Assembly (NCBI RefSeq): GCF_041381155.1
Contig: NC_091135.1
Span: forward strand, 69,676,418 to 69,740,417
Source of the DNA: Argopecten irradians
Lineage: Eukaryota; Mollusca; Bivalvia; Pectinida; Pectinidae
Direction of reading: 5' to 3'
DNA length: 64,000 nucleotides
Part shown: positions 1-36,829 of the stretch, one piece after another
Layout: every line of letters begins with the position of its first letter
Numbering within the stretch: position 1 is the first letter of the stretch
Position numbers and translations under genes: made by a program
Notes under the pieces: model-generated
Seen by the model: only the letters and a program-made list of their open reading frames with translations
Database searches by the model: none
Told to the model about the DNA's origin: nothing

Positions 1-1460
1 GTCTTGTCTATCTCTGTCAGAAGTGGTTTACAGCATGTCTTGTCTATCTCTGTCAGAAGTGGTTTACAGCATGTCTTGTCTATCTCTGTCAGAAGTGGTT
101 TACAGCTTGTCTAGTCTATCTCTGTCAGAAGTGGTTTACAGCATGTCTTGTCTATTTCTGTCAGAAGTGGTTTACAGCATGTCTAGTCTATCTCTGTCAG
201 AAGTGGTTTACAATGTCTTGTCTATCTCTGTTAGAAGTGGTTTACATCATGTCTTGTCTATTTCTGTCTGAAGTGGTTTACAGCATGTCTTGTCTATTTC
301 TGTCAGAAGTGGTTTACAGCATGTCTTGTCTATTTCTGTCAGAAGTGGTTTACAGCATGTCTTGTCTATCTCTGTCAGAAGTGGTTTACAGCATGTCTTG
401 TCTATCTCTGTTCAGAAGTGGTTTACAGCATGTCTTGTCTATCTCTGTCAGAAGTGGTTTACAGCATGTCTTGTCTATCTCTGTTAGAAGTGGTTTACAG
501 CATGTCTAGTCTATCTCTGTTAGAAGTGGTTTACAGCATGTCTTGTCTATCTCTGTTAGAAGTGGTTTACAGCATGTCTTGTCTATCTCTGTTAGAAGTG
601 GTTTACAGCATGTCTTGTCTATCTCTGTCAGAAGTGGTTTACAGCATGTCTTGTCTATCTCTGTTAGAAGTGGTTTACATCATGTCTTGTCTATCTCTGT
701 TAGAAGTGGTTTACAGCATGTCTTGTCTATTTCTGTTAGAAGTGGTTTACAGCATGTCTTGTCTATCTCTGTTAGAAGTGGTTTACAGCATGTCTTGTCT
801 ATCTCTGTTAGAAGTGGTTTACAGCATGTCTTGTCTATCTCTGTCAGAAGTGGTTTACAGCATGTCTTGTCTATCTCTGTCAGAAGTGGTTTACAGCATG
901 TCTTGTCTATCTCTGTCAGAAGTGGTTTACAGCATGTCTTGTCTATCTCTGTTAGAAGTGGTTTACATCATGTCTTGTCTATCTCTGTCAGAAGTGGTTT
1001 ACAGCATGTCTTGTCTATCTCTGTTAGAAGTGGTTTACAGCTTGTCTTGTCTATCTCTGTTAGAAGTGGTTTACATCATGTCTTGTCTATTTCTGTCAGA
1101 AGTGGTTTACAGCATGTCTTGTCTATCTCTGTTAGAAGTGGTTTACATCATGTCTTGTCTATTTCTGTCAGAAGTGGTTTAAGGCATATCTTGTCTATCT
1201 CTGTTAGAAGTGGTTTACATCATGTCTAGTCTATCTCTGTCAGAAGTGGTTTACAGCATGTCTTGTCTATCTCTGTCAGAAGTGGTTTACATCATGTCTT
1301 GTCTATTTCTGTCAGAAGTGGTTTACAGCATGTCTTGTCTATCTCTGTCAGAAGTGGTTTACAGCATGTCTTGTCTATCTCTGTCAGAAGTGGTTTACAT
1401 CATGTCTTGTCTATTTCTGTCAGAAGTGGTTTACATCATGTTTTGTCTATTTCTGTCAAT
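1..1460. repeat. 36-bp minisatellite, about 40 copies, cut by window start
   Basis: A 36-bp unit (core AGAAGTGGTTTACAGCATGT followed by CTTGTCTATCTCTGTC) is repeated head to tail with few differences, mainly C/T in TCTGTC/TCTGTT and CAGC/CATC. Because 36 is a multiple of three, several reading frames stay open across it; these are artefacts of the period and not genes. The array runs off the left edge, so its true length is unknown. It does not hold an AG|GT junction, unlike the arrays inside the gene further right. Confidence 0.95.
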
Positions 1461-4698: not shown

Positions 4699-4900
4699 TG
4701 TCCGAACAATACCATGAAGGCAAGGTTTATAGATGCAGTGAAGAGTGGAGTTATCACGTGGCATGCTGGTCCAATGAATATGCAGTTTGAGACATTAGAG
4801 CCCTCAATAGTCAAGTTTGGTTTACAACTCAGTTCAGACCTGGATAAACGCTTCAACATCACCAGGAAACATCGCACACTTAGCCAGAGGGATGTCCCAG
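4699..4900 (+). CDS. DUF5054-type gene, first visible exon
   Basis: Opens at TGTCCGAAC after TTACAG and ends CCCAG|GTAGGT, phase 1. It encodes AVKSGVITWHAGPMNMQ and FGLQLSSDLDKRFNITRKH, the front of the GH38-like fold. Its last 22 bases (4879-4900) are the seed of the tandem array that follows in the intron. Confidence 0.85.
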
Positions 4901-7900
4901 GTAGGTGTCAGTCTTAGTCAGATCCCAGGTAGGTGTCAGTATTGGTCAGAGGGATGTCTCAGGTAGGTGTCAGTCTTAGTCAGAGGGATGTCCCAGGTAG
5001 GTGTCAGTATTGGTCAGAGGGATGTCCCAGGTAGGTGTCAGTATTTGTCAGAGGGACTTCCCAGGTAGGTGACAGTCTTAGTCCTAGGGACATCCCACAT
5101 AGATGTCAGTCTTAGTCAGAGGGACGTCACATATAGGTGTCAGTCTTATTGTCAGAGGGACATCCCAGGTAGGTGTCAGTCTTAGTCCGAGGATGTCCCA
5201 AGTAGGTGTCAGTCTTAGTCCTAGGGATATCCCATGAAGGTGTAAGCCTTAGTATGAGGGATGTCCCAGTTAAGTGTCAGCCTTAGTCAGAGGGACGTCC
5301 TTGGTAATTGTCAGTATAGTCAGAGGGACATCAGAGGAGGTGTCAGTCTAGTCAGGGAATCAGAGCAACGTGCAGGTCCAGATCGTAGTGTCAGTCTTAG
5401 TCACAGCGTAGTTTAAGGGAGTCCAGTAGTGTCAGTCTTAGTCAAGGGACGTCCTAGGTCAGTTTAGGGTCCAGGTAGGTGTCAGTCTTAGTCAGAGGGA
5501 CGTCCCAGGTAGGTGTCAGTCTTAGTCAGAGGGACGTCCCAGGTAGGTGTCAGTCTTAGTCAGAGGGACGTCCCAGGTAGGTGTCAGTCTTAGTCAGAGG
5601 GACGTCCCAGGTAGGTGTCAGTCTTAGTCAGAGGGACGTCCCAGGTAGGTGTCAGTCTTAGTCAGAGGGACGTCCCGGGTAGGTGTCAGTCTTAGCCAGA
5701 GGGACGTCCCAGGTAGGTGTCAATCTTAGTCAGAGGGACGTCACATGTAGGTGTCAGTCTTAGTCCTAGGGACATCCCATGTCAGTGTCAGTCTTAATCC
5801 TAGGGATATCCCATGTAGGTGTCAGCCTTAGTATGAGGGATGTCCCAGTTAAGTGTCTGTATTAGTCAGAGGGACGTTCTTGGTAGGTGTCAGTATAAGT
5901 CAGAGGGACATCAGAGGCAGGTGTCAGTCTTAATCAGAGGGACGTGCCAGGTAGGTGTCAGTCTTAGTCAGAGGGACGTCCCAGGTAGGTGTCAATCTTA
6001 GTCAGAGGGACGTCCCAGGTAGGTGTCAGTCTTAGTCAGAGGGACGTCCCAGGTAGGTGTCAGTCTTAGTTAGAGGACGTCCCAGGCAGGTGTAAGTCTT
6101 AGTCAGAGGGACGTCCCGGGTAGGTGTCAGTCTTAGTTAGAGGACGTCCCAGGTAGGTGTCAGTCTTAGTCAGAGGCACTTCCCAGGTAGGTGACAATTT
6201 TAGTCAGAAAGACGTCCCAGGTAGGTGTCAGTCTAAATCAGACGGACGTCCCAGGAAGGTGTCAGTCTTAGTCCTAGCGACATCCCAGGAAGGTGTCAGT
6301 CTTAGTCAAAGGGACATCCCATGTAGGTGTCAGACTTAGTCAGAGGGACATTCCACATAGGTGTCAGACTTAGTCAGAGGGACATCCCAGGTAGGTGTCA
6401 GTCTTAGTCAGAGGGACATCCCAGGTAGGTGTCAGACTTAGTCAGAGGGACATTCCACATAGGTGTCAGACTTAGTCAGAGGGACATCCCAGGTAGGTGT
6501 CAGACTTAGTCAGAGGGACATCCCAGGTAGGTGTCAGACTTAGTCAGAGGGACATCCCAGGTAGGTGTCAGACTTAGTCAGAGGGACATCCCAGGTAGGT
6601 GTCAGACTTAGTCAGAGGGACATCCCAGGTAGGTGTCAGTCTTAGTCAGAGGGACATCCCAGGTAGGTGTCAGACTTAGTCAGAGGGACATCCCAGGTAG
6701 GTGTCAGACTTAGTCAGAGGGACATCCCAGGTAGGTGTCAGACTTAGTCAGAGGGACGTCCCAGGTAGGTGTCAGACTTAGTCAGAGGGACATCCCAGGT
6801 AGGTGTCAGTCTTAGTCAGAGGGACATCCCAGGTAGGTGTCAGACTTAGTCAGAGGGACATCCCAGGTAGGTGTCAGACTTAGTCAGAGGGACTTAGTCA
6901 GAGGGACATCCCAGGTAGGTGTCAGACTTAGTCAGAGGGACATCCCAGGTAGGTGTCAGACTTAGTCAGAGGGACGTCCCAGGTAGGTGTCAGACTTAGT
7001 CAGAGGGACGTCCCAGGTAGGTGTCAGTCTTAGTCAGAGGGACATCCCAGGTAGGTGTCAGTCTTAGTTAGAGGACGTCCCAGGTAGGTGTCAGACTTAG
7101 TCAGAGGGACATCCCAGGTAGGTGTCAGACTTAGTCAGAGGGACATCCCAGGTAGGTGTCAGACTTAGTCAGAGGGACATCCCAGGTAGGTGTCAGACTT
7201 AGTCAGAGGGACATCCCAGGTAGGTGTCAGACTTAGTCAGAGGGACGTCACAGGTAGATTTCAGTCTTAGTCAGAGGGACATTCCACATAGGTGTCAGTC
7301 TTAGTTAGAGGACGTCCCAGGTAGGTGTCAGTCTTAGTTAGAGGACGTCCCAGGTAGGTGTCAGACTTAGTCAGAGGCACTTACCAGGTAGATTTCAGTC
7401 TTAGTCAGAGGGACATTCCACATAGGTGTCAGTCTTAGTCAGAGGGACATCCCAGGTAGGTGTCAGTCTTAGTCAGAGGGACGTCCCAGGTAGGTGTCAG
7501 TCTTAGTCAGAGGGACATCCCAGGTAGGTGTCAGACTTAGTCAGAGGGACATCCCAGGTAGGTGTCAGTCTTAGTCAGAGGGATGTCCCAGGTAGATGGC
7601 AGTCTTATAGTGGGAGGAACGTCAAAGATAGGTGTCAGTTTACCATTTTATATTTAAACTTGCCTGCTTGATTTGTTTACTCTTAACCCCAGGTATGAGC
7701 CAGGCCCTAATATACCTCTTTTTGATTTGTTTACTGTTTACCCCCAGGTATGAGCCAGGCCTTCATACCTCTGTTTGATTTGTTTACTATTTACCCCCAG
7801 GTATGAGCCAGGCCCTAATATACCTCTGTTTGATTTGTTTACTTTTTACCCCCAGGTATGAGCCAGGCCTTCATACCTCTGTTTGATTTGTTCACTATTT

Positions 7901-10900
7901 ACCCCCAGATATGAATCAGGCCCTTATACCACTGTTTGATTTGTTTACTATTTACCCCCAGGTATGATCCAGGCCCTAATAACTCTGTTTCATTTGTTCA
8001 CTATTTACCCCCAGGTATGAGCCAGGCTCTAATACCTCGATTTGATTTGCTTACTATTTACCCCCAGGTATGAGCCAGGCCCTAATACTTCTGTTTAATT
8101 TGTTCACTATTTACCCCCAGGAATGAGCCAGGCCCTAATACCTCTGTTTGATTTGTTCACTATTTACCCCCAGGTATGAGTCAGGCCCTAATACCTCTGT
8201 TTGATTTGTTCACTATTTACCCCCAGGTATGAGTCAGGCCCTTATACCTCTGTTTGATTTGTTTACTATTTACCCCCAGGTATGAATCAGGCCCTAATAC
8301 CTCTGTTTGATTTGTTCACTATTTACCCCCAGGTATGAGCCTGGCCCTAATACCTCTGTTTAATTTGTTCACTATCTACCCCCAGGTATGAGTAAGGCCC
8401 TAATACCTCTGTTTGATTTGTTTACTATTTACCCCCAGGTGTGAGCCAGGCCTTCATACCTCTGTTTGATTTGTTTACTATTTACCCCCAGGTATGAATC
8501 AGGCCCTAATACCTTTGTTTGATTTGTTCACTATTTACCCTCAGGTATGAGTCAGGCCCTAATACATCCTCGATATTCCAGGGCTTCCGATCACTTACGA
8601 TCTCTACACCCCTGGACTATCTCATAGTGAAATTGAAGGCAGTTCAGCCGAAAACATTTGACCAATCACAGGCCAGCAAAGATTTCCTTTGAAGACTACA
8701 GAGAGAGCGATGACTAATATCAAAGCCACACAGTCGACCACAGTGTACCGTTATACGCTCTTTTGATGTACATCAAATGACTAAATTACATGTTCTATTC
8801 TGTTGCCTCCAGTTTTACTATGAGATGATCCAGGGGTGTAGAGATCGCTAGTGATCGGAAGCCCTAGAGTATCGAGGATAGCCCTAATACCACTGTTTGA
8901 TTTGTTTACTATTTACCCCCAGGTATAAGTCAGGCCCTAATACCTCTGTTTGATTTGTTTACTATTTACCCCCAGGTATGAGCCAGGCCTTCATATCTCT
9001 GTTTGATTTGTTTACTATTTACCCCCAGGTATGAGTCAGGCCCTAATACCTCTGTTTGATTTGTTTACTATTTACCCCCAGGTATGAGTCAGGCCCTAAT
9101 ACCTCTGTTTAATTTGTTCACTATTTACCCCCAGGTATGAATCAGGCCCTTATACCACTGTTTGATTTGTTCACTATCTACCCCCAGGTATGAGCCAGGC
9201 CCTAATAGCTCTGTTTGATTTGTTCACTATTTACCCCCAGGTATGAGTCAGGCCCTAATACCACTGTTTGATTTGTTCACTATTTACCCCAGGTATGAGC
9301 CAGGCCCTTATAGCTCTGTTTGATTTGTTCACTATTTACCCCCAGGTATGAGCCTGGCCCTAATACCTCTGTTTGATTTGTTTACTATTTACCCCCAGGT
9401 ATGAGCCAGGCCTTCATATCTCTGTTTGATTTGTTTACTATTTACCCCCAGGTATAAGTCAGGCCCTAATACCTCTGTTTGATTTGTTCACTATTTACCC
9501 CCAGGTATGAATCAGGCCCTAATACCTCTGTTTGATTTGGTCACTATTTACCCCCAGGAATGAGGCAGGCCTTAATACCTCTGTTTGATTTGTTTACTAT
9601 TTACCCCCAGGTGTGAGTCAGGCCCTAATACCTCTGTTTGATTTGTTCACTATTTACCCCCAGGTATGAATCAGGCCCTTATACCACTGTTTGATTTGTT
9701 CACTATCTACCCCCAGGTATGAGCCAGGCCCTAATACTTCTGTTGAATTTTTGTTTACTATTTACCCCCAGGTATGAGCCAGGCCCTAATAGCTCTGTTT
9801 GATTTGTTTACTATTTACCCCCAGGTATGAGCCAGGCCCTAATACCACTGTTTGATTTGTTCACTATTTACCCCCAGGTATGAGCCAGGCCCTAATAGCT
9901 CTGTTTGATTTGTTCACTATTTACCCCTAGGTATGAGCCAGGCCTTCATATCTCTGTTTGATTTGTTTACTATTTACCCCCAGGTATGAATCAGGCCCTA
10001 ATACCTCTGTTTGATTTGTTTACTATTTACCCCCAGGTATGAGCCAGGCCCTAATACCTCTGTTTGATTTGTTCACTATTTGCCCCCAGGAATAAGCCAG
10101 GCCCTAATACCTCTGTTTGATTTGTTTACTATTTACCCCCAGGTATGATCCAGGCCCTAATAACTCTGTTTCATTTGTTCACTATTTACCCCCAGGTATG
10201 AGCCAGGCCCTAATACCTCTGTTCGAAGAGATGGGAGTGGAGGCTGTTAGTGTGGGTGTCAACACAGTTACCTCCCCTCCTGCTGTTCCACCTATCTTCC
10301 GATGGATGTTTAAGAACTCAAGTGTCATTGGATTGTGGCACCCAGGTAAGTTGTTTTTATATTTTATACACATATGTTCTGTGTTGAGCAAACTTGTACA
10401 TATCTAAGATATGCCAAAGCTTATATGTATAGCTGCTGTTGGAAAAATATTTTTTAACTTTTTGTTGATGCTGTGAAACAGCATTCTTAGGTTTGCTCGG
10501 CGAGCCTGTGCACATCAAAACAATGAAACCACTCTGCGATGAAAATTAAAAGTTGTTTTGTTCATTTCACGTAATACTTGATGGTATGAAAAAATAAAAC
10601 CCCAATATTCAAAACCACAGACATAGAATTTGTACATACATATACACCATGGATGGAGTGTTTTAAGTGTTCAGTTGAGACTCTATGATATTTGTATTAG
10701 TCCGAGATCAGTAGTCTCCCGAAAATCACGAACAACGCGTTAACGCCTTCTTCGCTGTCTTCCACCGCGGCAGACTTTCGGTGGATTTTTGATTGTTGAT
10801 ATGTTTATATAAATTTTATGTAATTCATGCTACTGATCGATTATTGTAATCAAATGTTAGTAAGGTAACTGCAAAAGACAGTTCTTATAATGCTTATAAA

Positions 10901-13900
10901 AAATGTTTGTGTTGGTTGCATTGACGAACTATATCTGATGATACTATTACGCTGTAAAAGTTAATAGTTTTGAGTATGTGTTTCCTCCCTTGATCTGTCA
11001 CTGGGAGTTGTGTCTTTTGTTTATCGACAACTGCGTTATATAAAGGGAAAAGTACAAAAACTTACAAAATATAATGATAATATAGATCTATATATGTACG
11101 AGCAACTTAAAGTGACAAATGAACTTATATTGCCGTGTAATGTACGGTAACCTTATGAAGACTTGCTAAAGTCCGATGTATTGCATGAAGTTTTCTTGAT
11201 GTCAGCGTTCTTATGAGTTCAAAAAAAATTTGAGTGTTATAAGTAACCAAATAATGTACCTTTTACTTGGCAAAAGTATATAGCCATGTTTTGTTATAAG
11301 TCCAAAGTCAGCAAACCAAAACTCACCATAAAATGTTATAATATCTCGCCAACCAGGTGCTGTTAGGCTTGGGCTTACAAAGACTTGCTATCTGGCCACG
11401 ATTTATTAGTCAAAAGTCGTCAAAGCAACCCATGTTAGTTTTCTAAAAAGGAAACCAAAACATATTCGGAAATGGTAATATTTCTAATATTATATTTTTC
11501 TGAAAATATTCTGAAATGTTAAGTGGATATCAAGATACGGATATGTTAGCTTATTTTTTTTTTGTCTTTGAAGAGACATTGATGAAGTTGATAATTTAGT
11601 AATAAATAAAGAATTATAAAAAATGATACTCAGATTCTGAACGGTTTCATTTGTGTTGAAATCATTATTTCAGAAATAATTTAAATATAAAATTTATTGC
11701 AGTTATTTCAGGAAAATAAGTTATTCAACTTATTGTTCTTGAAAATTTTAAAATATCCAAAAAAAAATACGGTATACCGTTAATATATTTTGTTAAATTC
11801 CAAAATTCAACACTGCACACTTAGCATGTACTAAATTCAATATTAAAATGAAAAACCAATTTCTTTATTCCTTTGTTTGAGTCTTTCATTCACAGCATCT
11901 ATGAGTGGCCTTTGAACTTTGATTATCTCCTGATATGGTTGTTGAAGGTGCTGGATACCCAGAGAACCCCGGTCCTTTCCCCTTGTATGTATTTTTGTTG
12001 TAGATGGGTACCCAGAGAACCCCAGTCATTTCCCCTTGTATGTATTTTTGTTGTAGGTGGGTACCCAGAGATCCCAGGTCCTTACCCTTGTATGTATTTT
12101 TGCTGTAGGTGGGTACCCAGAGATCCCAGGTCCTTACCCTTGTATGTATTTTTGTTGTAGATGGGTACCCAGAGAACCCAGGTCCTTTCCCCTTGTATGT
12201 ATTTTTGTTGTAGGTGGGTACCCAGAGAACCCAGGTCCTTTCCCCTTGTATGTATTTTTGTTGTAGGTGGGTACCCAGAGATCCCAGGTCCTTACCCTTG
12301 TATGTATTTTTGTTGTAGGTGGGTACCCAGAGATCCCAGGTCCTTACCCTTGTATGTATTTTTGTTGTAGATGGGTACCCAGAGAACCCAGGTCCTTTCC
12401 CCTTGTATGTATTTTTGTTGTAGATGGGTACCCAGAGAACCCAGGTCCTTTCCCCTTGTATTTATTTTTGTTGTAGATGGGTACCCAGAGAACCTGGGTC
12501 CTTTCCCCTTGTATGTATTTTTGTTGTAGGTGGGTACCCAGAGATCCCAGGTCCTTACACCTTGTGTGTACTTTTGTTGTAGGTGGGTACCCAGAGATAC
12601 CAGGTCCTTATCCTTTTGCCCCTGGAGGACTTTCTCGACATGATTGTGCTACCTTCCCTGGTTTTGACCACGCTCTGTGTTTTGGATTCCGCACTGATAA
12701 CAGTGGACCACCCATGGATATCGCTGTAAGTCACACAAAAAAAAAAGATAATGATTCTAACAGAATTTAATTAATATATTAAAATGGACAGCTGGCAATT
12801 GTCATAAATAGATTACTTTTCAGATTATTTATAGAATAGTTAACTTAAAAGTGTCAAAGTCCCACTTTTGCTGTAAGGGCATATTTATAAGTTACTGGCT
12901 CAAATTGACAGACTATACCAGTTGGTATTTTCTTTTGTTTCTGCAAAAATGTTATCCATCCTCAAAAATCATCTTGACTACACAATGTCTGTTGTTTTTT
13001 TCAACACATTTTTTTTTTCATCTTCAGGAAGTTTTAAGATTGTATGAGATTGCAAGATCACAGTTTCCTGGAGCGGATGTGCAAGCATCAACATTTGAAG
13101 ACTTTGTTGCAAGTTTAGAACCAATCAAATCCAAGCTGCCAGTGGTAACTAAGGAGCTGGGAGACACCTGGATACAAGGATCAGCGTCCGATCCTAGGAA
13201 AGTCGCTGAGATGAGAGCCTTGATGAGAGTCAGAGCTGCATGTCTGGAAAATACTGGTAAGGCAGTGATAAATCTTAGTGAAATAGAAAATCACCGGAAC
13301 TGCATATTATATCGTGTTAATATAGATGAACTAGAAAATCCTTACTACAAATAAATCAGCTAGCAATAGTCTCCCTCCCCTATCTAGATATAAATCAGTA
13401 TTTTAGTGGGAAATATATGTAGCTAGGATGGAAAGATTTGACTAACCTATTCTTTCTCCGGGGATAGACATCGGCTATAGACATCGCTAACCTATTCTTT
13501 CTCCGGGGGTAGACATCGGCAAGCAAATTATTTCCTTAAGGAAACTGTCAGAATGGGACAGAAATGTATAAAGAAGTGCAATTTGATTCTCTCCTCTAAT
13601 GATCTTATATGTGTATCTTTTGCAGGCTGTTCCTTGTCAGATGACCGACTGTACAACTCGAGCCGTTTCCTGCTGAAGCTCGGTGAGCACACCTGGGGAT
13701 TGGACAGTGTGTTTGACCGTATACACTGGACAAATGAACAGTTCTATAAAATGCTGGATAATGGCAGTAAGTATACTAATATATATTCAAAATTATATGA
13801 CATAAAAATCCATTATTTAAGTATTTGTGATAATAAAATCAGATTTTTTTTTTAAATGAAATTGTTCAAGTATTAATACATATTGAAGAGTTCAAATAAT

Positions 13901-16900
13901 TTCATTTTCGTTCCAGTTTCCACAAGTCAAATATAAAAAACCACTTTAATACCCAGTAACTATAAGAGACCTAGGAAATTGAGCTGGTAAGCAGCTGACA
14001 TTTTAACAATTCAGGATAGTCAAGTATCCTGTAATGGATGTTGTTTGATTTAGCCCAGAACTTTGTGAATGGAGTGTTGTCCTGGCAGGAACAGAGAGCC
14101 TTCTCCTACATCGGAGTAGAGGCCCTGGGAAATCAGCCCCTCGCCAAAAACATGATGGCCGAACTCTCTCAGATTCCTGCAACCAGACCAGATATGAAAG
14201 GTAAGTTATGTTAATATAGCTCCTAAACATGGCAGATCTGAATATAACTCCTTAACAACAGCCACAAACACAAGTCCTAAACATCAGTCCTAAATATAAC
14301 TCCTAAACATCAGTCCTAAATATAACTCCTAAACATGGCAGTCCTAAATATAACTTCTTAACAACAGCCACAGACACAAGTCCTAAACATCAGTCCTAAA
14401 TATAACTCCTAAACATGGCAGTCCTAAATATAACTCCTAAACATGGCAGTCCTGAATATAACTCCTAAACATCAGTCCTAAATATAACTCCTAAACATGG
14501 CAGTCCTAAATATAACTTCTTAACAACAGCCACAAACACAAGTCCTAAACATCAGTCCTAAATATAAGTACTAAACATAATATATTTATTAATTCCAGTA
14601 TGAAGCTTCAATATGCTTCTGGAGGTTTGATGGCAGATATAAAGTAAAGGGAGGTAACCCCTCAAGTAAAGTGATTAAAATATTTGATTAATCTTCAATC
14701 TACTGTTTATGTTGTAGACTACGATGTGGTCAGTTCCATGCTGGACATACAGAGTTGTAACAATGGATTCCAGTTCCAGTTTGACAGAGAGGGATCCTTG
14801 ACAAGACTTGTACTACCAGGCAATACTGAAGAGGTAATATTGTGATTATATACTGTTTAAGTAGGTCCTTTTCATTCTGTGTTTGCAACATTATTTTCTC
14901 CATTCATCTGATATCATTTCATATACCAGAATAAGGCATGCTTTTTAATAAATATGTCTTTTGAACATAAGTATGTTGCTATTCATTGCATTGTGGCAGG
15001 GACAAATAGACTGTAACATTGCATGGTATTTTATTGAACTAAACCTATTTCAGTGTGTATTCTTGATCTGTGCCTCTAAAAAGCATACTTGAAATAAATA
15101 TTTACAAAGATAGTTTTATTTTGCCTTGGGTTCCCTAGACTTGGGCCACACCTACAAATCCACTGGGCAAGTTTATCTACCAGACTCTCAATCAATCAGA
15201 CTTCGACTACTTCAATCTGAATTATCCCTATGGCAAGAAGTTTGACCTTGGCATTGGCAAGTTCAATATCTCCAAAAATGCTAATGCCTCTAGTCAGCTA
15301 TGGGAAGTGAGGCTTGTACAGTTATACAAATCAAAGCGTAAGTAAGAAACTCATTATAGCTTAACTGACATATGTATTTACTCCTTTATGGAAAAGACAC
15401 ATAGGTATTTTTACTTCATTTACAAATATTGAATTAAACATAGATTACAAGTGTGTTTAGCCTTTTGTATTTCTCACCTGTACAGATAAAACGTGTGAGT
15501 ACATGTTACACATGGAGATGTCGGACGCTATCACCCTACAGCAATATGGAGCTCCAGCTATAATATTCCTGAAGTATGATGCTGATATTCCCAAGGCTGC
15601 CACTCCAGGTAATTCTCAGACACTTCGATAATATTCCTAAAGTATGATGCTGATACCTCCAAGGATGTCGATACAGGTAATTCTCAGGCAGTTTGATAAA
15701 TTTACTGAAGTATGATGCTGAGATATCCAAGACTACCGTTACAGGTAATTCTCAGACACTTTGATAATATTCCCAAGTATGATGCTGATATCTCCATGAC
15801 TGCTGCTCCAGGTAATTCTCAGACACTTTGATAATATCCCTAAAGTATGATGCTGATATCTCCAAGACTGCTGCTCCAGGTAATTCTCAGACGCTTTGAT
15901 AATATTCCTAAAGTATGATGCTGATATCTCCAAGACTGCCGATACAGGTAATTCTCAGGCACTTTGATAATATCCCTAAAGTATGACTGCTGATATCTCC
16001 ATGACTGCTGCTCCAGGTAATTCTCAGACGCTTTGATAATATTCCTAAAGTATGATGCTGATATCTCCAAGACTGCCAATACAGGTAATTCTCAGGCACT
16101 TTGATAAAATTCCTAAAGTATGATGCTGATATCTCCAAGACTGCCGATACAGGTAATTCTCAGGCACTTTGATAATATCCCTAAAGTATGACTGCTGATA
16201 TCTCCATGACTGCTGCTCCAGGTAATTCTCAGACGCTTTGATAATATTCCTAAAGTATGATGCTGATATCTCCATGACTGCTGATACAGGTAATTCTCAG
16301 GCACTTTGATAATATCCCTAAAGTATGACTGCTGATATCTCCAAGACTGCCGATACAGGTAATTCTCAGGCACTTTGATAATATCCCTAAAGTATGACTG
16401 CTGATATCTCCAAGACTGCCGATACAGGTAATTCTCAGGCACTTTGATAATATCCCTAAAGTATGATGCTGATATCTCCAAGACTGCCGATACAGGTAAT
16501 TCTCAGGCACTTTGATAATATCCCTAAAGTATGACTGCTGATATCTCCATGACTGCTGCTCCAGGTAATTCTCAGACGCTTTGATAATATTCCTAAAGTA
16601 TGATGCTGATATCTCCAAGACTGCCGATACAGGTAATTCTCAGGCACTTTGATAATATCCCTAAAGTATGATGCTGATATCTCCAAGACTGCCGATACAG
16701 GTAATTCTCAGGCACTTTGATAATATCCCTAAAGTATGACTGCTGCTCCAGGTAATACCAAATATCAGGTGACCGTTAAGGCCCATTGGCCTCTTGTTGA
16801 GATTTTGTGCTGCATGTCATTTTTTGAAATAAAAAAATGTTTTAATCATCAAATTAATAAGTTTTGGTGGTTTGGAAAATTTGGAATACTTCAAGAAAAT

Positions 16901-18361
16901 CTTTCTACAAAGGCCAGTGTATCACAAATCTGCCAAATTGATGCAGAACTCACAACCATGTTGTGTTAGTACATGTATCTGTTCACTTGCCAATCACATA
17001 TGGCATTGTTACTAGCCACAATACCTCTCAACTAGAGAAAACTTCTCTTTAGGTCGTTCAGTTGAGCATCAGACTAGTAATCCAGAGGTCCTGAGTTTGA
17101 TCCTTGGAAGAGGGCATGATTTCATTTTATATTCACATGGAGCTAAATAATGATAATGTTTCCATTTATCTTATAGCGGTTAATGTAGAACTCCAATGGT
17201 TTAAGAAGCCGCCCACCCGTATGCCTGAAGCTTACTATTTATCGTTTGAGCCGTCACCAAGACAGGGCCACCAATGGCGACTACACAAGTTAGGACAGCT
17301 GATTGATCCACTGAACGTTATACAGAATGGCAGTCAGCGACTTCATGGTGAGGATTCACAATGCTGCCACAAGTCATAATATAAAAATAGCCTGAAATAA
17401 GATTGTTGATAAATTATCACTTGACTTTGGTACTTTACATGCTTAAAGGCCCATTACCTTTCCGGATCAAAATTAAAAGTTTCTTAAAGAGAATACATAT
17501 CGATAGCCTAAGATGAGGTAACAACACCAAACATATGCAAGATTTCCTGCGTAATATAAAATAACTGTGGAGATTTAATTCGCTGTTTTGCCGTCTGGGG
17601 CAGTGAAAGTCAATACTGCGCGGTATTTAGGATGACGGTGCGAAACATAAGATGACCCACGTTATGGAAATTACCATTTTATTTATTTTAATCAAATTTT
17701 TCAGAAGATGATGATGAGTGTAATATAACAGTAATTTAATAACTTTTGCGACTCTACAAAATTATCGATCTTGTTTTACATTCCCAATTTAAAAATTAAA
17801 AAGCTGTCTTGGAAAGGCAGTGGGCCTTTTAACATTTACTGTAATTTGAACAAAAATATCATGAGTACTGCATTAAAATGTGGTATCTTGCATAAATAGT
17901 TGACTGAGCTAAAATTTTAACATTTAATTGTTAAATTTACGTTTGATGTGCAGTAATACATTGTAATCATAGTAATATTTGATATCATTCCATCTATTAT
18001 AAGAAGTGTTTGTGGATGATTTACCTTACCTTACAGTTTCTCTTTTGGGATAGTAATAAGACGTTGTTGTCTCATTACTGTTTGTTGTGTATTTTTAGTG
18101 GTGAATAACGGCGTTTTCTATCTGGATGATCGATCCTCTGGTATGGAGATACTGTCACGTGACGTAGGGCTGGTGAACGTCCTGACATCAGACGATTATG
18201 TAAGCACACTACCTTTACCGCTGTCACCAATTACTGATGTCACCGGGATGGCATTCAATCTCTATAACAATATCTGGGACGTCAACTATATATTCTGGTA
18301 CCCATATCAAATGTCTGATACCGACTCCAAATTTAGATTTACTCTTAACTTTCCTCGGTGA
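4699..18361 (+). CDS. GH38-like DUF5054-family protein, C-terminal 627 residues in 11 exons
   Basis: Eleven exons join in frame with GT-AG introns: 4699-4900, 10196-10345, 12583-12725, 13028-13256, 13626-13766, 14054-14200, 14718-14833, 15139-15337, 15486-15608, 17177-17347, 18099-18361 (stop TGA at the end). The protein reads through WHAGPMNM, FGLQLSSDLDKRF, DVPGMSQALIPLFEEMGV, PPIFRWMF, DNSGPPM, EVLRLYEIARSQFPGADVQA, VVTKELGDTWIQGSASDP and GEHTWGLD, blocks I associate with the DUF5054 family, a set of proteins resembling glycoside hydrolase family 38 (alpha-mannosidase type). The later half (DIQSCNNGFQFQFD, WEVRLVQLYKSK, FWYPYQMSDTD) would be the beta-rich C-terminal part. Family members start with a KTHLDxGFTD-like segment; that part is not in the window, so one or more upstream exons are missing from view. 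Substrate and activity are unknown. Large minisatellites sit on four of its splice junctions. Confidence 0.85.
4879..7637 (+). repeat. donor-junction minisatellite, 34-bp unit, about 80 copies
   Basis: The unit is CTTAGTCAGAGGGACGTCCC then AGGTAGGTGTCAGT. The first copy is the real exon end plus its donor: exon bases 4879-4900 (CTTAGCCAGAGGGATGTCCC then AG) and the intron start GTAGGTGTCAGT. The same exon-intron junction is then repeated through the intron, nearly always keeping CAG|GTAGGT. Variants include GACATCCCAG and CCACATAG. Units are 34 bp, not a multiple of three, so use of a decoy donor would shift the frame. Degenerate copies lie near 5300-5460 and at the right end. Confidence 0.93.
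7653..10195 (+). repeat. acceptor-junction minisatellite, 53-bp unit, about 42 copies
   Basis: The unit reads GTATGAGCCAGGCCCTAATA, CCTCTGTTTGATTTGTTCAC, TATTTACCCCCAG. The final copy runs straight into the real exon at 10196, whose first bases GTATGAGCCAGGCCCTAATA are the same. Each unit therefore carries a pyrimidine-rich tract, an AG and the start of the next exon (which itself begins GT). Most junctions read CCCCCAG|GTATGA; a few read CAG|GAATGA or similar. It is interrupted by a MITE at 8566-8880. Confidence 0.93.
8566..8880. mobile_element. MITE inserted in the acceptor array
   Basis: A 315-bp element with inverted ends of about 64 bp: ATCCTCGATATTCCAGGGCT on the left against the reverse complement of GGAAGCCCTAGAGTATCGAG on the right, with ATCTCTACACCCCTGGA shared further in. 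It is flanked by GCCCTAATAC on both sides (8556-8565 and 8881-8890), which may be a 9-10 bp target duplication or simply the repeated array unit. No coding capacity. Confidence 0.85.
10196..10345 (+). CDS. DUF5054-type gene, second visible exon
   Basis: Starts GTATGAGCC after CCCCCAG and ends GGCACCCAG|GTAAGT, phase 1 at both ends. Encodes MSQALIPLFEEMGVEAVSVG and PPAVPPIFRWMFKNSSVIGL. The split codon G|GT gives the glycine of DVPGMSQ across the 5.3-kb intron. Confidence 0.9.
10346..11946. other. intron without recognised features
   Basis: AT-rich intron sequence. Only a short palindrome (GCTCGGCGAGC near 10497) stands out. No repeat family, ORF or RNA gene could be supported. Confidence 0.6.
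11947..12582 (+). repeat. acceptor-junction minisatellite, 52-53-bp unit, 12 copies
   Basis: The unit reads GTGGGTACCCAGAGATCCCA, GGTCCTTACCCTTGTATGTA, TTTTTGTTGTAG. The last copy ends at the true acceptor of the next exon (12583), which begins GTGGGTACCCAGAGATACCA. Of 12 unit borders, about seven read TGTAG|GTGGG and five read TGTAG|ATGGG. Open frames across it (PEIPGPYPCMYF-like) echo the exon's own GGYPEIPGPYPF and are not separate genes. Confidence 0.93.
12583..12725 (+). CDS. DUF5054-type gene, third visible exon
   Basis: Starts phase 1 (G|GT gives glycine), ends phase 0 at GATATCGCT|GTAAGT. Encodes GGYPEIPGPYPFAPGGLSRH and LCFGFRTDNSGPPMDIA. Confidence 0.88.
13028..13256 (+). CDS. DUF5054-type gene, fourth visible exon
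   Basis: Acceptor TTCATCTTCAG, donor ATACTG|GTAAGG. Encodes EVLRLYEIARSQFPGADVQA, LEPIKSKLPVVTKELGDTWI and MRALMRVRAACLENTG, among the most family-like blocks. Starts phase 0, ends phase 1. Confidence 0.9.
13626..13766 (+). CDS. DUF5054-type gene, fifth visible exon
   Basis: Acceptor TCTTTTGCAG, donor ATGGCA|GTAAGT. Encodes SDDRLYNSSRFLLKLGEHTW and GLDSVFDRIHWTNEQFYKML. Phase 1 at both ends. Confidence 0.88.
14054..14200 (+). CDS. DUF5054-type gene, sixth visible exon
   Basis: Acceptor TTTGATTTAG, donor ATGAAAG|GTAAGT. Encodes QNFVNGVLSWQEQRAFSYIG and NMMAELSQIPATRPDMK. Phase 1 at both ends. Confidence 0.87.
14225..14575. repeat. irregular intronic minisatellite, about 24-26 bp unit
   Basis: Repeats of TCCTAAATATAACTCCTAAA and CATCAG or CATGGCAG, with interspersed longer blocks starting CTTAACAACAGCCACAAACA. 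It begins about 25 bases after the donor of the preceding exon but does not itself contain the exon-intron junction. Confidence 0.85.
14718..14833 (+). CDS. DUF5054-type gene, seventh visible exon
   Basis: Acceptor TTTATGTTGTAG, donor GAAGAG|GTAATA. Encodes YDVVSSMLDIQSCNNGFQFQ and SLTRLVLPGNTEE. Ends phase 0. Confidence 0.87.
15139..15337 (+). CDS. DUF5054-type gene, eighth visible exon
   Basis: Acceptor GGTTCCCTAG, donor TCAAAGC|GTAAGT. Encodes TWATPTNPLGKFIYQTLNQS and KKFDLGIGKFNISKNANASS. Starts phase 0 and ends phase 1. Confidence 0.87.
15486..15608 (+). CDS. DUF5054-type gene, ninth visible exon
   Basis: Acceptor ACCTGTACAG, donor ACTCCAG|GTAATT. Encodes KTCEYMLHMEMSDAITLQQY and IIFLKYDADIPKAATP. 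Its last 49 bases seed the array that follows. Phase 1 at both ends. Confidence 0.87.
15560..16751 (+). repeat. donor-junction minisatellite, 68-bp unit, about 17 copies
   Basis: The unit is about 49 bases of the preceding exon's 3' end (TTCCTAAAGTATGATGCTGA, TATCTCCAAGACTGCCGATA, CAG) plus the first 19 of the intron (GTAATTCTCAGACACTTTG). The first copy is the real coding junction at 15608/15609; the rest lie in the intron with CAG|GTAATT kept in essentially every copy. Two length variants (one with an extra C in AGTATGACTGC) alternate in a higher-order pattern. Minus-strand open frames here are by-products. Confidence 0.94.
16783..17130 (+). repeat. tRNA-derived SINE piece in intron
   Basis: 17051-17110 resembles a tRNA gene body: GTCGTTCAGTTGAGCATCAG (A-box region), an ACTAGTAATCC anticodon-like stretch, and GAGTTTGATCCTTGG (B-box region). 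It does not fold as a clean tRNA and is followed by AT-rich sequence, so a decayed SINE head is more likely than a functional tRNA. 16783-16802 (GGCCCATTGGCCTCTTGTTG) may be part of the same or another element. Confidence 0.55.
17177..17347 (+). CDS. DUF5054-type gene, tenth visible exon
   Basis: Acceptor TTATCTTATAG, donor CTTCATG|GTGAGG. Encodes VNVELQWFKKPPTRMPEAYY and GHQWRLHKLGQLIDPLNVIQ. Phase 1 at both ends. Confidence 0.88.
17443..17832. mobile_element. TTAA-flanked MITE in intron
   Basis: TTAA then AGGCCCATTACCTTTCC at the left is matched in inverse at the right by GGAAAGGCAGTGGGCCTT then TTAA. About 390 bp, no coding capacity. The TTAA flanks suggest piggyBac-type mobilisation. Confidence 0.7.
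18099..18361 (+). CDS. DUF5054-type gene, last exon
   Basis: Acceptor GTATTTTTAG; ends at TGA (18359-18361). Encodes VNNGVFYLDDRSSGMEILSR, ITDVTGMAFNLYNNIWDVNY and SDTDSKFRFTLNFPR. The in-frame stop after a full exon and the match of the join to the preceding G (valine) support it as the terminal coding exon. Confidence 0.88.
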
Positions 18362-19864
18362 TGATATCTGTGATCACTCTACGTGAGTATGGGAGTGCTA
18401 TTATTGATGTCTTTAAGTCGAGATAGGTGATAATGTTAACCATCTGAACTTGTAATGTAATATGTTTTCTGTACATGTATCTTGCCAAATTTGGAACTGC
18501 CAAAACACAACCTATAACATAATCACATATACATAGTGATGTGTCTTAATCCTAGATTTATCACTGTAATCATAAAAAAATGAGTTATTTGGGAACAAGT
18601 TTTGTTTCTCACCGTGTTAGGAATTTATTACATCGTTGAGTATAATGCATAATTGTACTTTTGGAGCTTCCTACCCCTCACAAAAGATCCCCACCCCATA
18701 TAACATTTTTGATCCCGAAACTTCATGTAAAAATGCCATACCCTTAATTTCTTGTTCAAGTACTTTATGTTATTTGAGGTAATTTCTCACCTTTCGAATC
18801 GTATAGCTTCGCTTGGCTTCAAAAGATATCAAGAATCATGATGAAAAAATGTTCCTTTGAAATATCGATGCTGCATATTTAAAACATGCCTTTGGAAATG
18901 TAACGATCCCCATCTCATATCATATACCGAGAAGTTGAATGACTGAGCTGCATGTTTGAAATGTGTTAGAAAACCATTATATTCCTTGTATAATCATACT
19001 ATGGTTAGCAAATCATGTTAGTAGTACAGGCCCTCTGGACCTCTTCTATCTCTTTTAGAGAGATTAAAGTATGTACAAGTGTTGGGAATGACAGTATGAA
19101 GTTTTGAAAATGTTACAAGTGTGTATGTCAATAAGCTACCATTATTGTCAGGGTAGAATTAGTAATTACAGATTTGTGAACTAGAACTAATGAACGAGAA
19201 TGCTGTTCTGGAAGTGATGAGATGTTAAGATAAATATTATTCTATTTTTAGTACTAACATGTTATTACTAGCTAAGGATAAAGTTTTGATGGTATCATTG
19301 AATATAAAGAACTATCACATAGTTCCGAGTGTGGTACTGGTTGCTCTAATGCAGTACACTTGTGTTGTCCGAGGATGTATTTCATTGCTAACCCCCTTAC
19401 TCGTCAAATTTTCGTCAAGATCTGAACAAAGGAATTTGTATGTGTATTAGCTTATTCCTAAATTGATAAGTTGATTTGATCTGAATATCGTTTTACAAAG
19501 TTACAATCGTAGATAACTTATTATATAGATGTACACTATATAATTCTGATAATGTTATGTCAGTGTCCATTATTTATACCATCTAACAATAAACACTTAT
19601 ACCCTTATGTTCATGATGGAGATATTGAAATTATATCACTAAACTATAAATAATGCATTCAATATGATGGTTGTATTACGTTCCTATTATATCTGGATTT
19701 ATAAGTTTAAATTCGTTACAATATCATGACTAGTAACGTACTATTTGGATGTTATGTATATTTAGGATCCGTACAGTCATTTAATTGACTTGATTTATCG
19801 ACAACTTGCGTTTTGTTATCCTACTTTAGGATGCTTTAGAAAACGCTATTTATGTAGGTACATG
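18362..19864 (+). other. 3' flank of the DUF5054-type gene, probably UTR in part
   Basis: No further coding exon seen. A canonical AATAAA lies at 19588-19593, a possible poly(A) signal but 1.2 kb past the stop; ATTAAA near 19064 is an alternative. Otherwise nothing recognised. Confidence 0.4.
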
Positions 19865-20673
19865 TGTCGCGGTGTTTAAATTCACCATATATATAATATG
19901 TATTATATATGGTGTTTTAACTACATGCGCTGTGTATTGTCTGAATTTACATGTCCCTGTGTCTGTCTGAATTTACATGTCCCTGTGTCATGTAATGTCC
20001 TGTACATGTAAATCTGTGTGTGTAAGTTGTTATGATGACGTATGAGAGGCGAGTGAATGGATTGGTTGAGTGTGTCACATTGACCCTGCATGACCCTGTC
20101 CTTGCACGTGCACGCCCACCCTTGAGGAAGCGTGTCCGCACATTACGTGGAAATAGGCACTGGACTGTACATGTGTGCTTTACGGCCACATTACTAAAAG
20201 GTATGTTTATTTAATGAATAATTAGAAATAAAGTAATTAACTTATTCTTCACTGTGCAATATAATTAATATACTTTATATAATTAAAACTTCTTTAAATA
20301 ACTTGTCCATAAAGCTTTATATTATGTATAAAAAAAGGACCGCACGTGGTCGGTGAGGTTAGGGCAATGCATAGAGTCAAGTGACTGTAAATTAAATGTT
20401 ATTTGTAAATATATGTAACTCGGAAATTAAAATACAATTTAATATTATAATATATTAAATAGATACCTGTTTATATTTTATACCTTACAGTATAAATATA
20501 GAAGATATAGTAGTCTGTTCATTTATGTGTCCCTATATATTGTCAGGTATTGTTCTTTTTATTTCAGGGTTATCTGTCTCCGTTTTTGTGTAAATAAACT
20601 TTCAACTGTTTATAGCTGTTGGATTATATTTATATATTCGTGAACCAACCCACATACTATCACTCTCGTGACA
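19865..20673 (+). repeat. left LTR of Ty3/gypsy element
   Basis: 809 bp, TGTCGC...GTGACA. Contains a strong palindrome near 19887-19916 (ACCATATATATAATATG and its inverse), and an A-rich region with AATAAA near 20593 that would serve as polyadenylation signal. Confidence 0.95.
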
Positions 20674-23646
20674 TTGGCGCCCAACGTGGGGCCAATGTCA
20701 AAACCTTGCGTTCTTTTCTAGGTTTTACAGGGTACTACAGGAGGTTCATTAAGGATTATGCTAAAGTCATAAAACCTTTAAACGATCTCCTTGTTGGACA
20801 CTGTACCCACAAAAATGTTAAGGGGCCAAAGAAAAAGATTCCCTGGGTATGGGGGGATAGTCAACAGAAGGCTTTTGATACCATTGTTGGTCTTCTATCA
20901 TCTCCACCAGTGTTAGCATATGCAGACTTTACTAAGCCTTTCATTGTTAACACGGATGCCTCAATAGAAGGTTTAGGTGCTGTACTGTACCAGAATCAAG
21001 GGGGCCATGAACGGGTAATAGCGTATGCTAGTCGAGGATTACGTCCCAGCGAGAAGAACTACCCAGCTCATAAGTTGGAATTTCTTTGTCTCAAATGGGC
21101 CCTCACTGACAAGTTCCATGATTACCTGTATGGCAACACTTTTGAGGTACGTACAGATAACAACCCTCTAGCCTATGTGACGACCACTGCAAAGCTGGAC
21201 GCAGCAAGCCATAGGTGGTTAGCCTCACTCTCAAACTATAATTTTAAATTAGTCTATAGAGCGGGCCGTCTTAATGGGGACGCTGATGGGTTGTCAAGGC
21301 GACCATATCAGCTAGAGGAAGTTTTCCCAGATGTTGTGAGAGCAGTTTCCTGTGCTTGTTTGACTACGAGAGAGGAATTGCCATTAGCTGAAACTGTGGT
21401 ACTCTCAAACACATCATCCCTAGAACCAGAGAATGATACAGAGAATGGCACTCTAGATATGGGTAATGTAAAACTCTCTGGTGTGGATTGGGAAAAACAA
21501 CAGTCCTTAGATAAACATCTCAGGAGGGTTATACATTTTGTCAGGGAGGGGGTTCGACCTGATAAGAGTGTTCTGAGACACGAACCTGAGGAAGTGCGGC
21601 AGTATATGCGGGAGTGGCGGCTGTTTGATCTGCGTAATGGTGTGTTGTATAGAAACACCACCATTGATAATGACCCTATTCAGCAGCTAGTCATTCCTGA
21701 GGCATATAGAGAGAAGGTCCTCAGGGGAGTGCATGAAGATGTCGGTCATCAGGGACGTGACCGGACAAACTGGTTGGCAAAGCGTCGGTTTTTTTTGGCC
21801 TGGCTTTGATGCCAAGGTAAATAGATGGGTCGAAAGCTGTGGTAGGTGTATTCGTAGAAAAACCCCTACTGTCCCAAAAGCAGAGTTGGTTAACATCCAA
21901 AGTTCTCGACCAATGGAACTACTCTGCATTGACTATTTGACCTTGGAAAGGTCAAAGGGGGGCTACGAAAATGTGCTGGTTATCACTGACCATTTCACCC
22001 GCTATGCCCAGGCAATTCCAACCAGGAACCAGTTAGCGAGTACCACCGCCAGGGTGTTGTACGAACAGTTCATTGTCCACTACAGCTTTCCTGCCCGAAT
22101 CCATAGTGACCAGGGTAGGAATTTTGAAAGCAAAGTTATCAAGGAACTTTGCAAGATAGCTGGAGTGGATAAAACGAGAACTACCCCTTACCATCCTATG
22201 GGCAATGGCATGGTCGAACGGTTCAACCAAACTTTGCTAAAAATGTTAGGTACAATGGAGGAAGAACAAAAATCCAATTGGAAATCTTACGTGGCTCCTC
22301 TTGTTCACGCATATAACGCTACAAAACATGAAACCACTGGATATTCCCCTCATTACCTAATGTTTGGTTGGCACCCAAGACTTAGTGTAGATGCATTTTT
22401 AGGCATCGATACAGATTCTAAGACTGTAGGGAGTCGCCAGAATTATGCCCAAAAGCTTAAGCGTCGGTTAGACTTTGCCTACAAAGCTGCCTCAGCTGAA
22501 AGTGATAGGAAGGGTAAGAGGTACAAAGATAGGTACGATAGGGGAGTTAGGGAAGCTACTCTAGAAGTAGGTGACCGGGTTCTGATGAGGAACGTAGGTA
22601 TATGTGGCAAACAGAAATTAGCTGATAAATGGGCTAAGGATCCCTACATTATCCTTAGTATACCAAATGCTGATATGCCCGTATACAAGATCCGGAAAGA
22701 GTCGGGACAGGGACCTATTAAAACTGTGCATAGGAACCTGCTCCTCCCTTTCATGTGGCTACCTAGAACTCAGGGTGCTGATGAACCAAGGGAGACAACT
22801 CAGAATCAGAATCCCGGGATACAGTTTGACGAGAGTTCCTCCTCCACTACTGACTCTGATAGCTCAGATGATGATGGAAGTCAATCACCCAGGTACGTCA
22901 TTCCTGCGAGGAGACCCAGGCGCACTGTCGCTGGCGCGCAACGACCAGTGCAACCAAATACTGTTGGTACAGGGAATTCTCCGAAACAGGGTACCAACGG
23001 TGTGTGTCGAAATTCTAACGCTGCAGGCATGCGCAGTGTTGGTCAGACACAAGACTCAGTTCCAGCTACAAGGTCCAGACGAGCCTGTAAACCTCCTAAG
23101 TTGTATGGAGAATGGCTCATGGAAACCTTGGTGCCATCAAATTCTGGGTCCGAGGTCTACGTTTAGACATTTAGAGCAGTGGGAGAATGTCATAGTGAGC
23201 AAGACCACTCCTGATTGTGAAAATTATATTTAATCTCTACAGCTACTAATGTGTATTACCTTATGGTTTACCATTTATTAAGTAGAATTGTAGCATAATT
23301 GCAATTTACATTCAATTATAATAAATGTTAGATTATATTCGCATCAGGAATGTTTTGTTTCACTTGGCAGAGGAGAAATTCTAGTTAAGCTATAGATGCT
23401 GGATATTACCTTGGGACACTGGCCAAGGTGATAAATTTTGTAAATATTGATTTCTAATACTGTATTGGTAAAAAAAATTTCTGTTCAGTGAGCAGTGATC
23501 CTTTAATCCTTGTAGGTAGGGATTGCCCCAATCACTTGGATACTGGATACTGTACTGCTCATTGATTTTCCTATGAATATTTTAACTGTGATGTTTAACA
23601 TTAGGTGATTTAAATGCCAGGAGTCATTTTCCTTTGCAGGGGAGAA

Positions 23647-24454
23647 TGTCGCGGTGTTTAAATTCACCATATATATAATATGTATTATATATGGTGTTTT
23701 AACTACATGCGCTGTGTATTGTCTGAATTTACATGTCCCTGTGTCTGTCTGAATTTACATGTCCCTGTGTCATGTAATGTCCTGTACATGTAAATCTGTG
23801 TGTGTAAGTTGTTATGATGACGTATGAGAGGCGAGTGAATGGATTGGTTGAGTGTGTCACATTGACCCTGCATGACCCTGTCCTTGCACGTGCACGCCCA
23901 CCCTTGAGGAAGCGTGTCCGCACATTACGTGGAAATAGGCACTGGACTGTACATGTGTGCTTTACGGCCACAGTACTAAAAGGTATGTTTATTTAATGAA
24001 TAACTAGAAATAAAGTAATTAACTTATTCTTCACTGTGCAATATAATTAATATACTTTATATAATTAAAACTTCTTTAAATAACTTGTCCATAAAGCTTT
24101 ATATTATGTATAAAAAAGGACCGCACGTGGTCGGTGAGGTTAGGGCAATGCATAGAGTCAAGTGACTGTAAATTAAATGTTATTTGTAAATATATGTAAC
24201 TCGGAAATTAAAATACAATTTAATATTATAATATATTAAATAGATACCTGTTTATATTTTATACCTTACAGTATAAATATAGAAGATATAGTAGTCTGTT
24301 CATTTATGTGTCCCTATATATTGTCAGGTATTGTTCTTTTTATTTCAGGGTTATCTGTCTCCGTTTTTGTGTAAATAAACTTTCAACTGTTTATAGCTGT
24401 TGGATTATATTTATATATTCGTGAACCAACCCACATACTATCACTCTCGTGACA
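23647..24454 (+). repeat. right LTR of Ty3/gypsy element
   Basis: 808 bp, over 99% identical to the left LTR by eye, same TGTCGC and GTGACA ends. Confidence 0.95.
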
Positions 24455-32460: not shown

Positions 32461-32461
32461 G

Positions 32462-34147: not shown

Positions 34148-34253
34148 ATTTATCTAGCTGTTGGTTTCAAATGTAAACTCAAAGTTTGTACACAAATTTT
34201 GAAAATTTCTTAATTAATTTTTCAAAGTTAGATTTCACAAATTGAATATCGAT

Positions 34254-36761: not shown

Positions 36762-36829
36762 AATGATGTTCAGTCGGAATATAATTCTGTCAGCATTCTT
36801 CTCTGGTTTATCATCAAGCTAAACAGGCA

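Follow-up and report, generated by a model that had tools for sequence, protein, structure and literature searches.

Tandem arrays straddling the splice junctions of a DUF5054 gene in the scallop Argopecten irradians

How are exons joined correctly in a gene whose own splice junctions stand repeated in tandem, up to dozens of times, in the neighbouring introns? The question is raised by a DUF5054 gene of the scallop Argopecten irradians (genome size 846 Mb), part of which lies in the 64,000-nucleotide stretch of contig NC_091135.1 analysed here (C2:69676418-69740417; hereafter the window). Eleven coding exons fall inside the window (4699-18361, plus strand, as are the exons and arrays of the window described below) and form a single open frame, the product of which matches Pfam DUF5054 (PF16477) with E = 2.3e-31; with the part upstream of the window, the whole gene extends over more than 20 kb. 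Five minisatellites in this gene run across exon borders. They are probably intronic arrays of the kind described in amphioxus as 'mirages', neutrally expanded, in which selection holds the exon-proximal copy.

Arrays at the exon borders

Arrays were called with Tandem Repeats Finder (TRF) and then decomposed unit by unit. Coding exon A (4699..4900; 3' edge GATGTCCCAG|gtaggtgtcagt), placed by its open frame and its match to a database protein, P0001, runs into array 1 (4879..7639), which holds 78 units of 34 bp, each made of 22 nt of exon and 12 nt of intron. Within it, the stretch 5310-5470 is irregular and degenerate, possibly poor consensus sequence. Exon B (10196..10345; first bases GTATGAGCC) is entered from array 2 (7664..10218; to 10223 by TRF), whose 42 units of 53 bp combine 30 nt of intron with 23 nt of exon, the authentic copy being the final unit. 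An insertion at 8568..8892 opens a 325-bp gap between units of array 2, and by eye its inverted-repeat ends resemble those of a miniature inverted-repeat transposable element. The two arrays are separated by 24 bp of single-copy spacer (7640..7663), and save for these 24 bp they occupy the whole of intron A/B.

Two further arrays in the window have the same anatomy. Array 3 (11952..12604; to 12609 by TRF) leads into exon C (12583..12725; first bases GTGGGTACC) with about 12 units of 52-53 bp, comprising 31 nt of intron and 22 nt of exon; decomposition gave 13 units, the first divergent or partial. Array 4 (15560..16745) copies the donor of exon I (15486..15608; 3' edge GCCACTCCAG|gtaattctcaga) in about 17 units of 68 bp, 49 nt exonic and 19 nt intronic, or 18 by decomposition with the last partial. 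A fifth array, located before the start of the window at the exon 1 donor (ATGAACCACCTAG|GTAAGTAC; L002:3168-5812, i.e. C2:69669585-69672229), has about 77 units of 34 bp and overlaps the exon by 12 nt. The gene thus carries five junction arrays, three on donors and two on acceptors, and their tandem units include the splice site with flanking sequence from both exon and intron. Exons B, C and I are taken from the open-frame exon model, as are exons D-H (13028-13256, 13626-13766, 14054-14200, 14718-14833 and 15139-15337) and exons J and K (17177-17347 and 18099-18361).

An earlier note on this DNA had placed four arrays at coding splice junctions of one gene, and this holds: because the outermost units contain 22 (A), 23 (B), 22 (C) and 49 (I) nt of coding exon, the arrays cross the junctions, and the copy numbers first given (80, 42, 12 and 17) lie near the 78, 42, 13 and 18 of the decomposition (the 13 counting a divergent or partial first unit, the 18 a partial last one). 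The same note read the units as GT...AG segments. We do not take this as independent evidence, since any unit that contains AGGT can be rotated to begin with GT and end with AG.

It could be that array copy numbers are wrong in the assembly, and a stronger form of this doubt, that the assembler inflated or garbled the long arrays altogether, would find some encouragement in the irregular stretch at ~5310-5470 of array 1 and in exon 2, which is out of frame relative to P0001 near a 36-bp array. Against it, the units exist in many distinct variants, identical neighbours being found in 27/75 pairs in the exon 1 array and in 16/76, 1/40, 0/11 and 2/15 in arrays 1-4, and like arrays occur at unrelated loci (see below). 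We regard an assembly artefact as very improbable. Exon 2 itself (L002:6005-6290) has a 3' half that is out of frame relative to P0001, with several small differences, and adjoins the start of the 36-bp array; the allele may be damaged, the assembly may be wrong here, or a junction may have been affected for a sixth time. The 36-bp array measures ~5.1 kb in all, beginning at L002:6363 near the disturbed end of exon 2 and ending within the window at 1..1458.

Exon joins

The exon borders are supported by P0001 (707 aa): over the part of the gene inside the window, with its ten introns, it is identical to the gene product at 625 of 627 residues. Its source contig is at most 4,738 bases long, as against more than 20 kb for the gene, and P0001 therefore appears to derive from a spliced transcript; it belongs to a cluster of seven member sequences from four contigs, and its source tag 'lgn' presumably denotes assembled public reads. 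The match supports joining of the exons at the exon-proximal junctions. Normal mRNA splicing despite the copies is thus seen for one mRNA-like protein cluster. The closest named relative among the matches listed is a Ylistrum balloti protein with 87% identity. A search of the scallop's own genome with the PF16477 profile returned no match, perhaps as the domain is split over exons, while the protein query succeeded where the profile gave nothing.

Strength and conservation of the copies

What distinguishes the junction in use from its copies? Approximate splice-site weights were applied to all copies save those gapped at the site. Donor copies scored at most 1 bit below the authentic site, or better, in 67/72 cases in the exon 1 array, 48/75 in array 1 and 16/16 in array 4; the same was true of 38/39 acceptor copies in array 2 and 11/11 in array 3. 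As the copies score like the authentic site, strength hardly explains the choice of the exon-proximal junction, and position can.

The AGGT of the junction is intact in 71/76 non-authentic copies of the exon 1 array, in 52/77 of array 1, 37/41 of array 2, 6/12 of array 3 (counting the divergent first unit) and 16/16 of array 4. Ranked by conservation among the 4-mers of its unit, AGGT stands 10/31 in the exon 1 array and 26/31, 18/50, 43/50 and 1/65 in arrays 1-4, leading in one of the five arrays and elsewhere ranging from the upper third to under average. Junction copies show neither systematic loss nor consistent retention, and the comparison, made within arrays only, reveals no consistent excess conservation of AGGT over other unit 4-mers of the sort looked for at recursive splice sites.

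These data bear on the proposal, also made in the earlier note, that the arrays are stepwise splice sites, i.e. a functional ratchet for obligate recursive removal of the introns. The AG|GT copies do have the form of recursive sites, and the acceptor copies of array 2 join a good 3' site to an adjacent 5' site, scoring as donors with a median of 8.1. Arrays 1 and 4, on the other hand, lack a good 3' site, their authentic units being poor acceptors under the same approximate weights (-0.5 and 2.1), AGGT is not consistently conserved, and the affected introns are merely 1.6-5.3 kb long. We find an obligate ratchet hardly credible.

Proposed origin

Under the explanation that we favour, each array would have begun as a short tandem duplication that fell by chance over the border of an exon and an intron; for four of the five arrays, the intron concerned would then have measured only ~66-450 bp. 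Since a good junction stays next to the exon after such a duplication, the protein would be spared. The unit would then have multiplied into the intron by unequal exchange or slippage, with selection holding just the copy that adjoins the exon while the other 12 to ~77 drift as intron filler, mostly keeping the look of good splice sites. The spliceosome would take the exon-proximal junction, which in a donor array is the first donor and in an acceptor array the last acceptor; judging by the anatomy of the arrays, exon definition would be the simplest way to reach this choice, as it would pick whichever donor lies closest to the upstream exon and whichever acceptor lies closest to the downstream one. 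With unit lengths of 34, 34, 53, 53 and 68, none a multiple of three, splicing at a wrong copy would usually cause a frameshift. Of the alternatives that the earlier note had offered, the best fit is slippage tolerated solely in the sequence immediately outside exons.

Placement, intron length and the AG|GT pattern

The geometry of the introns accounts for part of the pattern. With each array collapsed, the introns of the five arrays measure 66, 214, 450 and 1,637 bp, intron A/B shrinking to ~66 bp when arrays 1 and 2 are both reduced to one unit, and in introns this short straddling is likely by geometry in most cases. We compared the gene with random placement, using pre-expansion introns of 214, 66, 66, 1,637, 175, 450 and ~3,300 bp (the final value being a guess), defining straddling as an overlap of at least 8 nt and treating the arrays as independent, including both of intron A/B.

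Several observations weigh against an origin by chance and neutrality alone. Five of seven arrays straddle a junction where random placement predicts 2.0 (P = 0.007), a modest excess in a gene that was chosen for its striking look, and for intron B/C, at 1,637 bp, the chance of straddling is just 0.053. AG|GT is found at 8 of the 23 resolved junctions, and all five arrays sit on such junctions (0.0017). In array 4, AGGT is kept in every one of the 16 copies and ranks first, albeit in 16 copies only. Lastly, judged from sequence alone, silent stepwise splicing may take place at the copies.

The first of these points would be expected if splice junctions were preferred seeds of tandem duplication (for instance through transcription or RNA-DNA hybrids) beyond the effect of intron length. 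The paralogue of the gene on C4 could be read in the same sense, since there the donor of the homologous exon adjoins an unrelated array of 25-bp GT...AG units, and so could the genome-wide surplus of tripled donor words (10,758 against 1,927 for the reversed word). We nevertheless hold preferred seeding to be doubtful: the donor word does not go beyond the range of control words (5,041, 5,905 and 11,705), random arrays contain donor-like motifs about as often as expected (9/32 against 6.7), coding-like flanks exceed the 95th percentile of random places at only 5 of 57 array ends in the sample, and the gene was selected by eye-catching appearance. The earlier suggestion of junction-seeded amplification is therefore weakly indicated, by the placement excess within the gene, and finds no clear counterpart in the genome-wide word counts.

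The AG|GT pattern invites another explanation, a filter of survivorship in which arrays persist just at AG|GT junctions; each copy would there be acceptor and donor at once, a zero-length exon, and a second splice would mend errors. All five arrays of the gene lie on AG|GT. Among 12 acceptors, exactly two exons start with GT, B and C, and both carry arrays; counting one in a membrane-protein gene elsewhere, all three acceptor arrays seen are AG|GT, and the copies of the exon B acceptor score as donors too (median 8.1, as above). Against the filter stand a donor array in a DDX42 gene at a CCG|GT junction, the loss of GT in 6/12 copies of array 3, and a tripled TGGTRAGT that is as common genome-wide as AGGTRAGT (11,229 and 10,758). 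The donor consensus favours AG|GT in any case, which further weakens the argument. A fail-safe filter in which mis-splicing corrects itself is possible, but as an account of why these arrays survive we think it unlikely, and the broader claim, that long arrays arise only or mostly at AG|GT with copies acting as self-cancelling zero-length exons whose errors a second splice mends, seems distinctly improbable. The earlier note's remark about AG|GT thus has more behind it in this gene than was argued there, but one of the two junction arrays found at other loci, that of DDX42, departs from the pattern.

Junction arrays elsewhere in the genome

Is the gene exceptional? A sample of 20 places of 10 kb each, in which arrays with a period of at least 12 and at least four copies were kept and overlapping rows reduced to the best, contained 32 arrays covering 55,683 of 200,000 bases (28%). 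Of the 32, at least two run across splice junctions in other genes, a lower bound, as array ends were incompletely surveyed for exons (coding scores for 57 of 64, and a listing of stop-free flanks). One is a 97-bp array of 86 copies (L008:1412-9790, minus strand) that begins 46 nt inside an exon matching DDX42 (E = 4.9e-13; Pfam DEAD domain E = 1.4e-4, under the curated cut-off) and straddles its donor. This exon ends ..EIIVATP with CCG|GTATGT, which is not AG|GT. The other, with a 77-bp unit and ~62 units in the stretch read (L044 and L016:1-1772), ends at the acceptor TTTTAG|GTATATTGG, an AG|GT junction; its exon reads ILVGVLCSIAAIVVVVGFIFYFK, a membrane span with no Pfam match near the cut-off. 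A 54-bp array at L007 lies ~50 bp past a probable Nup214-like exon (E = 0.006, under the cut-off) and, with the exon end placed by eye, makes no contact with it. Two junction arrays per 200 kb would correspond to thousands per genome, with wide uncertainty, and the two seen are no clear excess over a chance expectation of ~0.8, itself a rough hand estimate from assumed gene numbers.

The array of the DUF5054 paralogue (C4:33144711-33145058; L039) starts ~8 nt past the donor of the exon A homologue. Its 25-bp unit is unrelated in sequence and includes no part of the exon, and it is the sole array in the parts read, which leave out 2.2 kb of that gene.

Genome-wide, we counted words present in three copies spaced by 12-42 bases; these are matches, not arrays. 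Tripled AGGTRAGT is 5.6-fold more frequent than its reversal (10,758 vs 1,927), a figure that we reject as proof of donor enrichment because controls reach similar levels: there are 11,229 matches to TGGTRAGT and 5,905 to its reversal, 5,041 to ATGGRATG and 11,705 to the reversal of the latter, GTARGGTA, a word that itself includes AGGTA or GGGTA. By this measure donor-bearing arrays show no clear excess, the donor word falling inside the range of controls that themselves differ several-fold. Single words in the masked sample (10 for AGGTRAGT, 7 for the reversal) are too few to calibrate the counts. Enrichment of donors in the random arrays was likewise rejected, the expected 6.7 being obtained by shuffling units. 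Among the 57 ends given a coding score relative to random places, arrays did not tend in general to lie at exons; the codon table of the score comprised 1,203 codons, with one TGA counted, the gene's own stop within the joined exons.

Relation to known systems

The earlier note knew of no description of such arrays, yet the same arrangement has been published in amphioxus. In two reports, 'mirages' are minisatellite-like tandem duplications of exon-intron boundaries, found in Adh3 (PMC3087553, PMC3902484), in the globin genes BflGb6 and BflGb9 (PMC3087553) and further in troponin C and PGBD5 (PMC3902484). As described there, mirages share with the scallop arrays a unit that takes in the splice site and the adjoining edges of exon and intron, the involvement of donors and acceptors alike, the retention of AG/GT in many copies, differences between units of one array, and mRNA reported as normal. 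In the one assembly analysed, the scallop gene therefore displays three mirage features, namely junction-spanning units, effects on either side of the intron and regular mRNA splicing; mirages are further marked by unstable length, which differs between haplotypes or tissues. It differs from the mirages described there in belonging to a mollusc rather than a cephalochordate, in bearing five arrays in one gene, and in having both ends of one intron (A/B) amplified until the intron was filled. Where 6 and 3 mirage units are stated for the BflGb6 haplotypes (PMC3087553), there are up to ~77 copies here and 86 in the DDX42 gene. The kind is already known; what is new is the host, the scale and the density.

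Two other systems invite comparison. In the Rogers model of intron gain, as outlined in PMC3087553, AG|GT segments are likewise duplicated in tandem, whereas the copies here lie in pre-existing introns. The ratchet points at which long introns of fly and human are spliced recursively share the AG|GT zero-length-exon form; the scallop arrays differ in repeating a junction of their own gene in tandem, in lying within introns of 1.6-5.3 kb and in showing no consistent conservation. The open-licence papers listed, in part the top entries of longer lists, gave no mollusc example of junction arrays, and the available passages on an abalone intron minisatellite (PMC6905558) do not state that it spans a junction.

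These results suggest that the mirage phenomenon extends from amphioxus to a mollusc and is perhaps common in genomes rich in minisatellites. With most copies near the strength of the true site, the gene is a natural experiment in which position and exon definition are set against sequence in the choice of splice sites, and it allows the tolerance of junction arrays at AG|GT to be tested directly. Amplification of both its ends apparently took intron A/B from a length of ~66 bp to one of 5.3 kb. If the copies at AG|GT were indeed self-cancelling, there would be dozens of working, never-selected recursive sites in one gene, and thousands in the scallop genome.

Other features of the gene and window

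Intron F/G contains a 26-bp array (14213..14580) that starts 12 nt past the donor of exon F, includes no exon sequence and does not straddle the junction. For the 41-, 44-, 34- and 21-bp arrays of the window, edges were checked only by listing open frames of at least 110 aa. By eye, two regions (19857-24083 and 29326-34153) resemble Ty3/gypsy-like long terminal repeat (LTR) retroelements with pol-like open frames, the first with repeated terminal blocks. On the minus strand, two small open frames (36410-36769 and 43318-43668) are related and perhaps represent a small duplicated gene; they have the motifs CTSYxELQ and FENSTxVTHDxxYSLxExMCRYA in common. Finally, the 21-bp array (46039-49677, ~169 copies) is preceded by a short array that resembles its reverse complement, marking an inverted array boundary.

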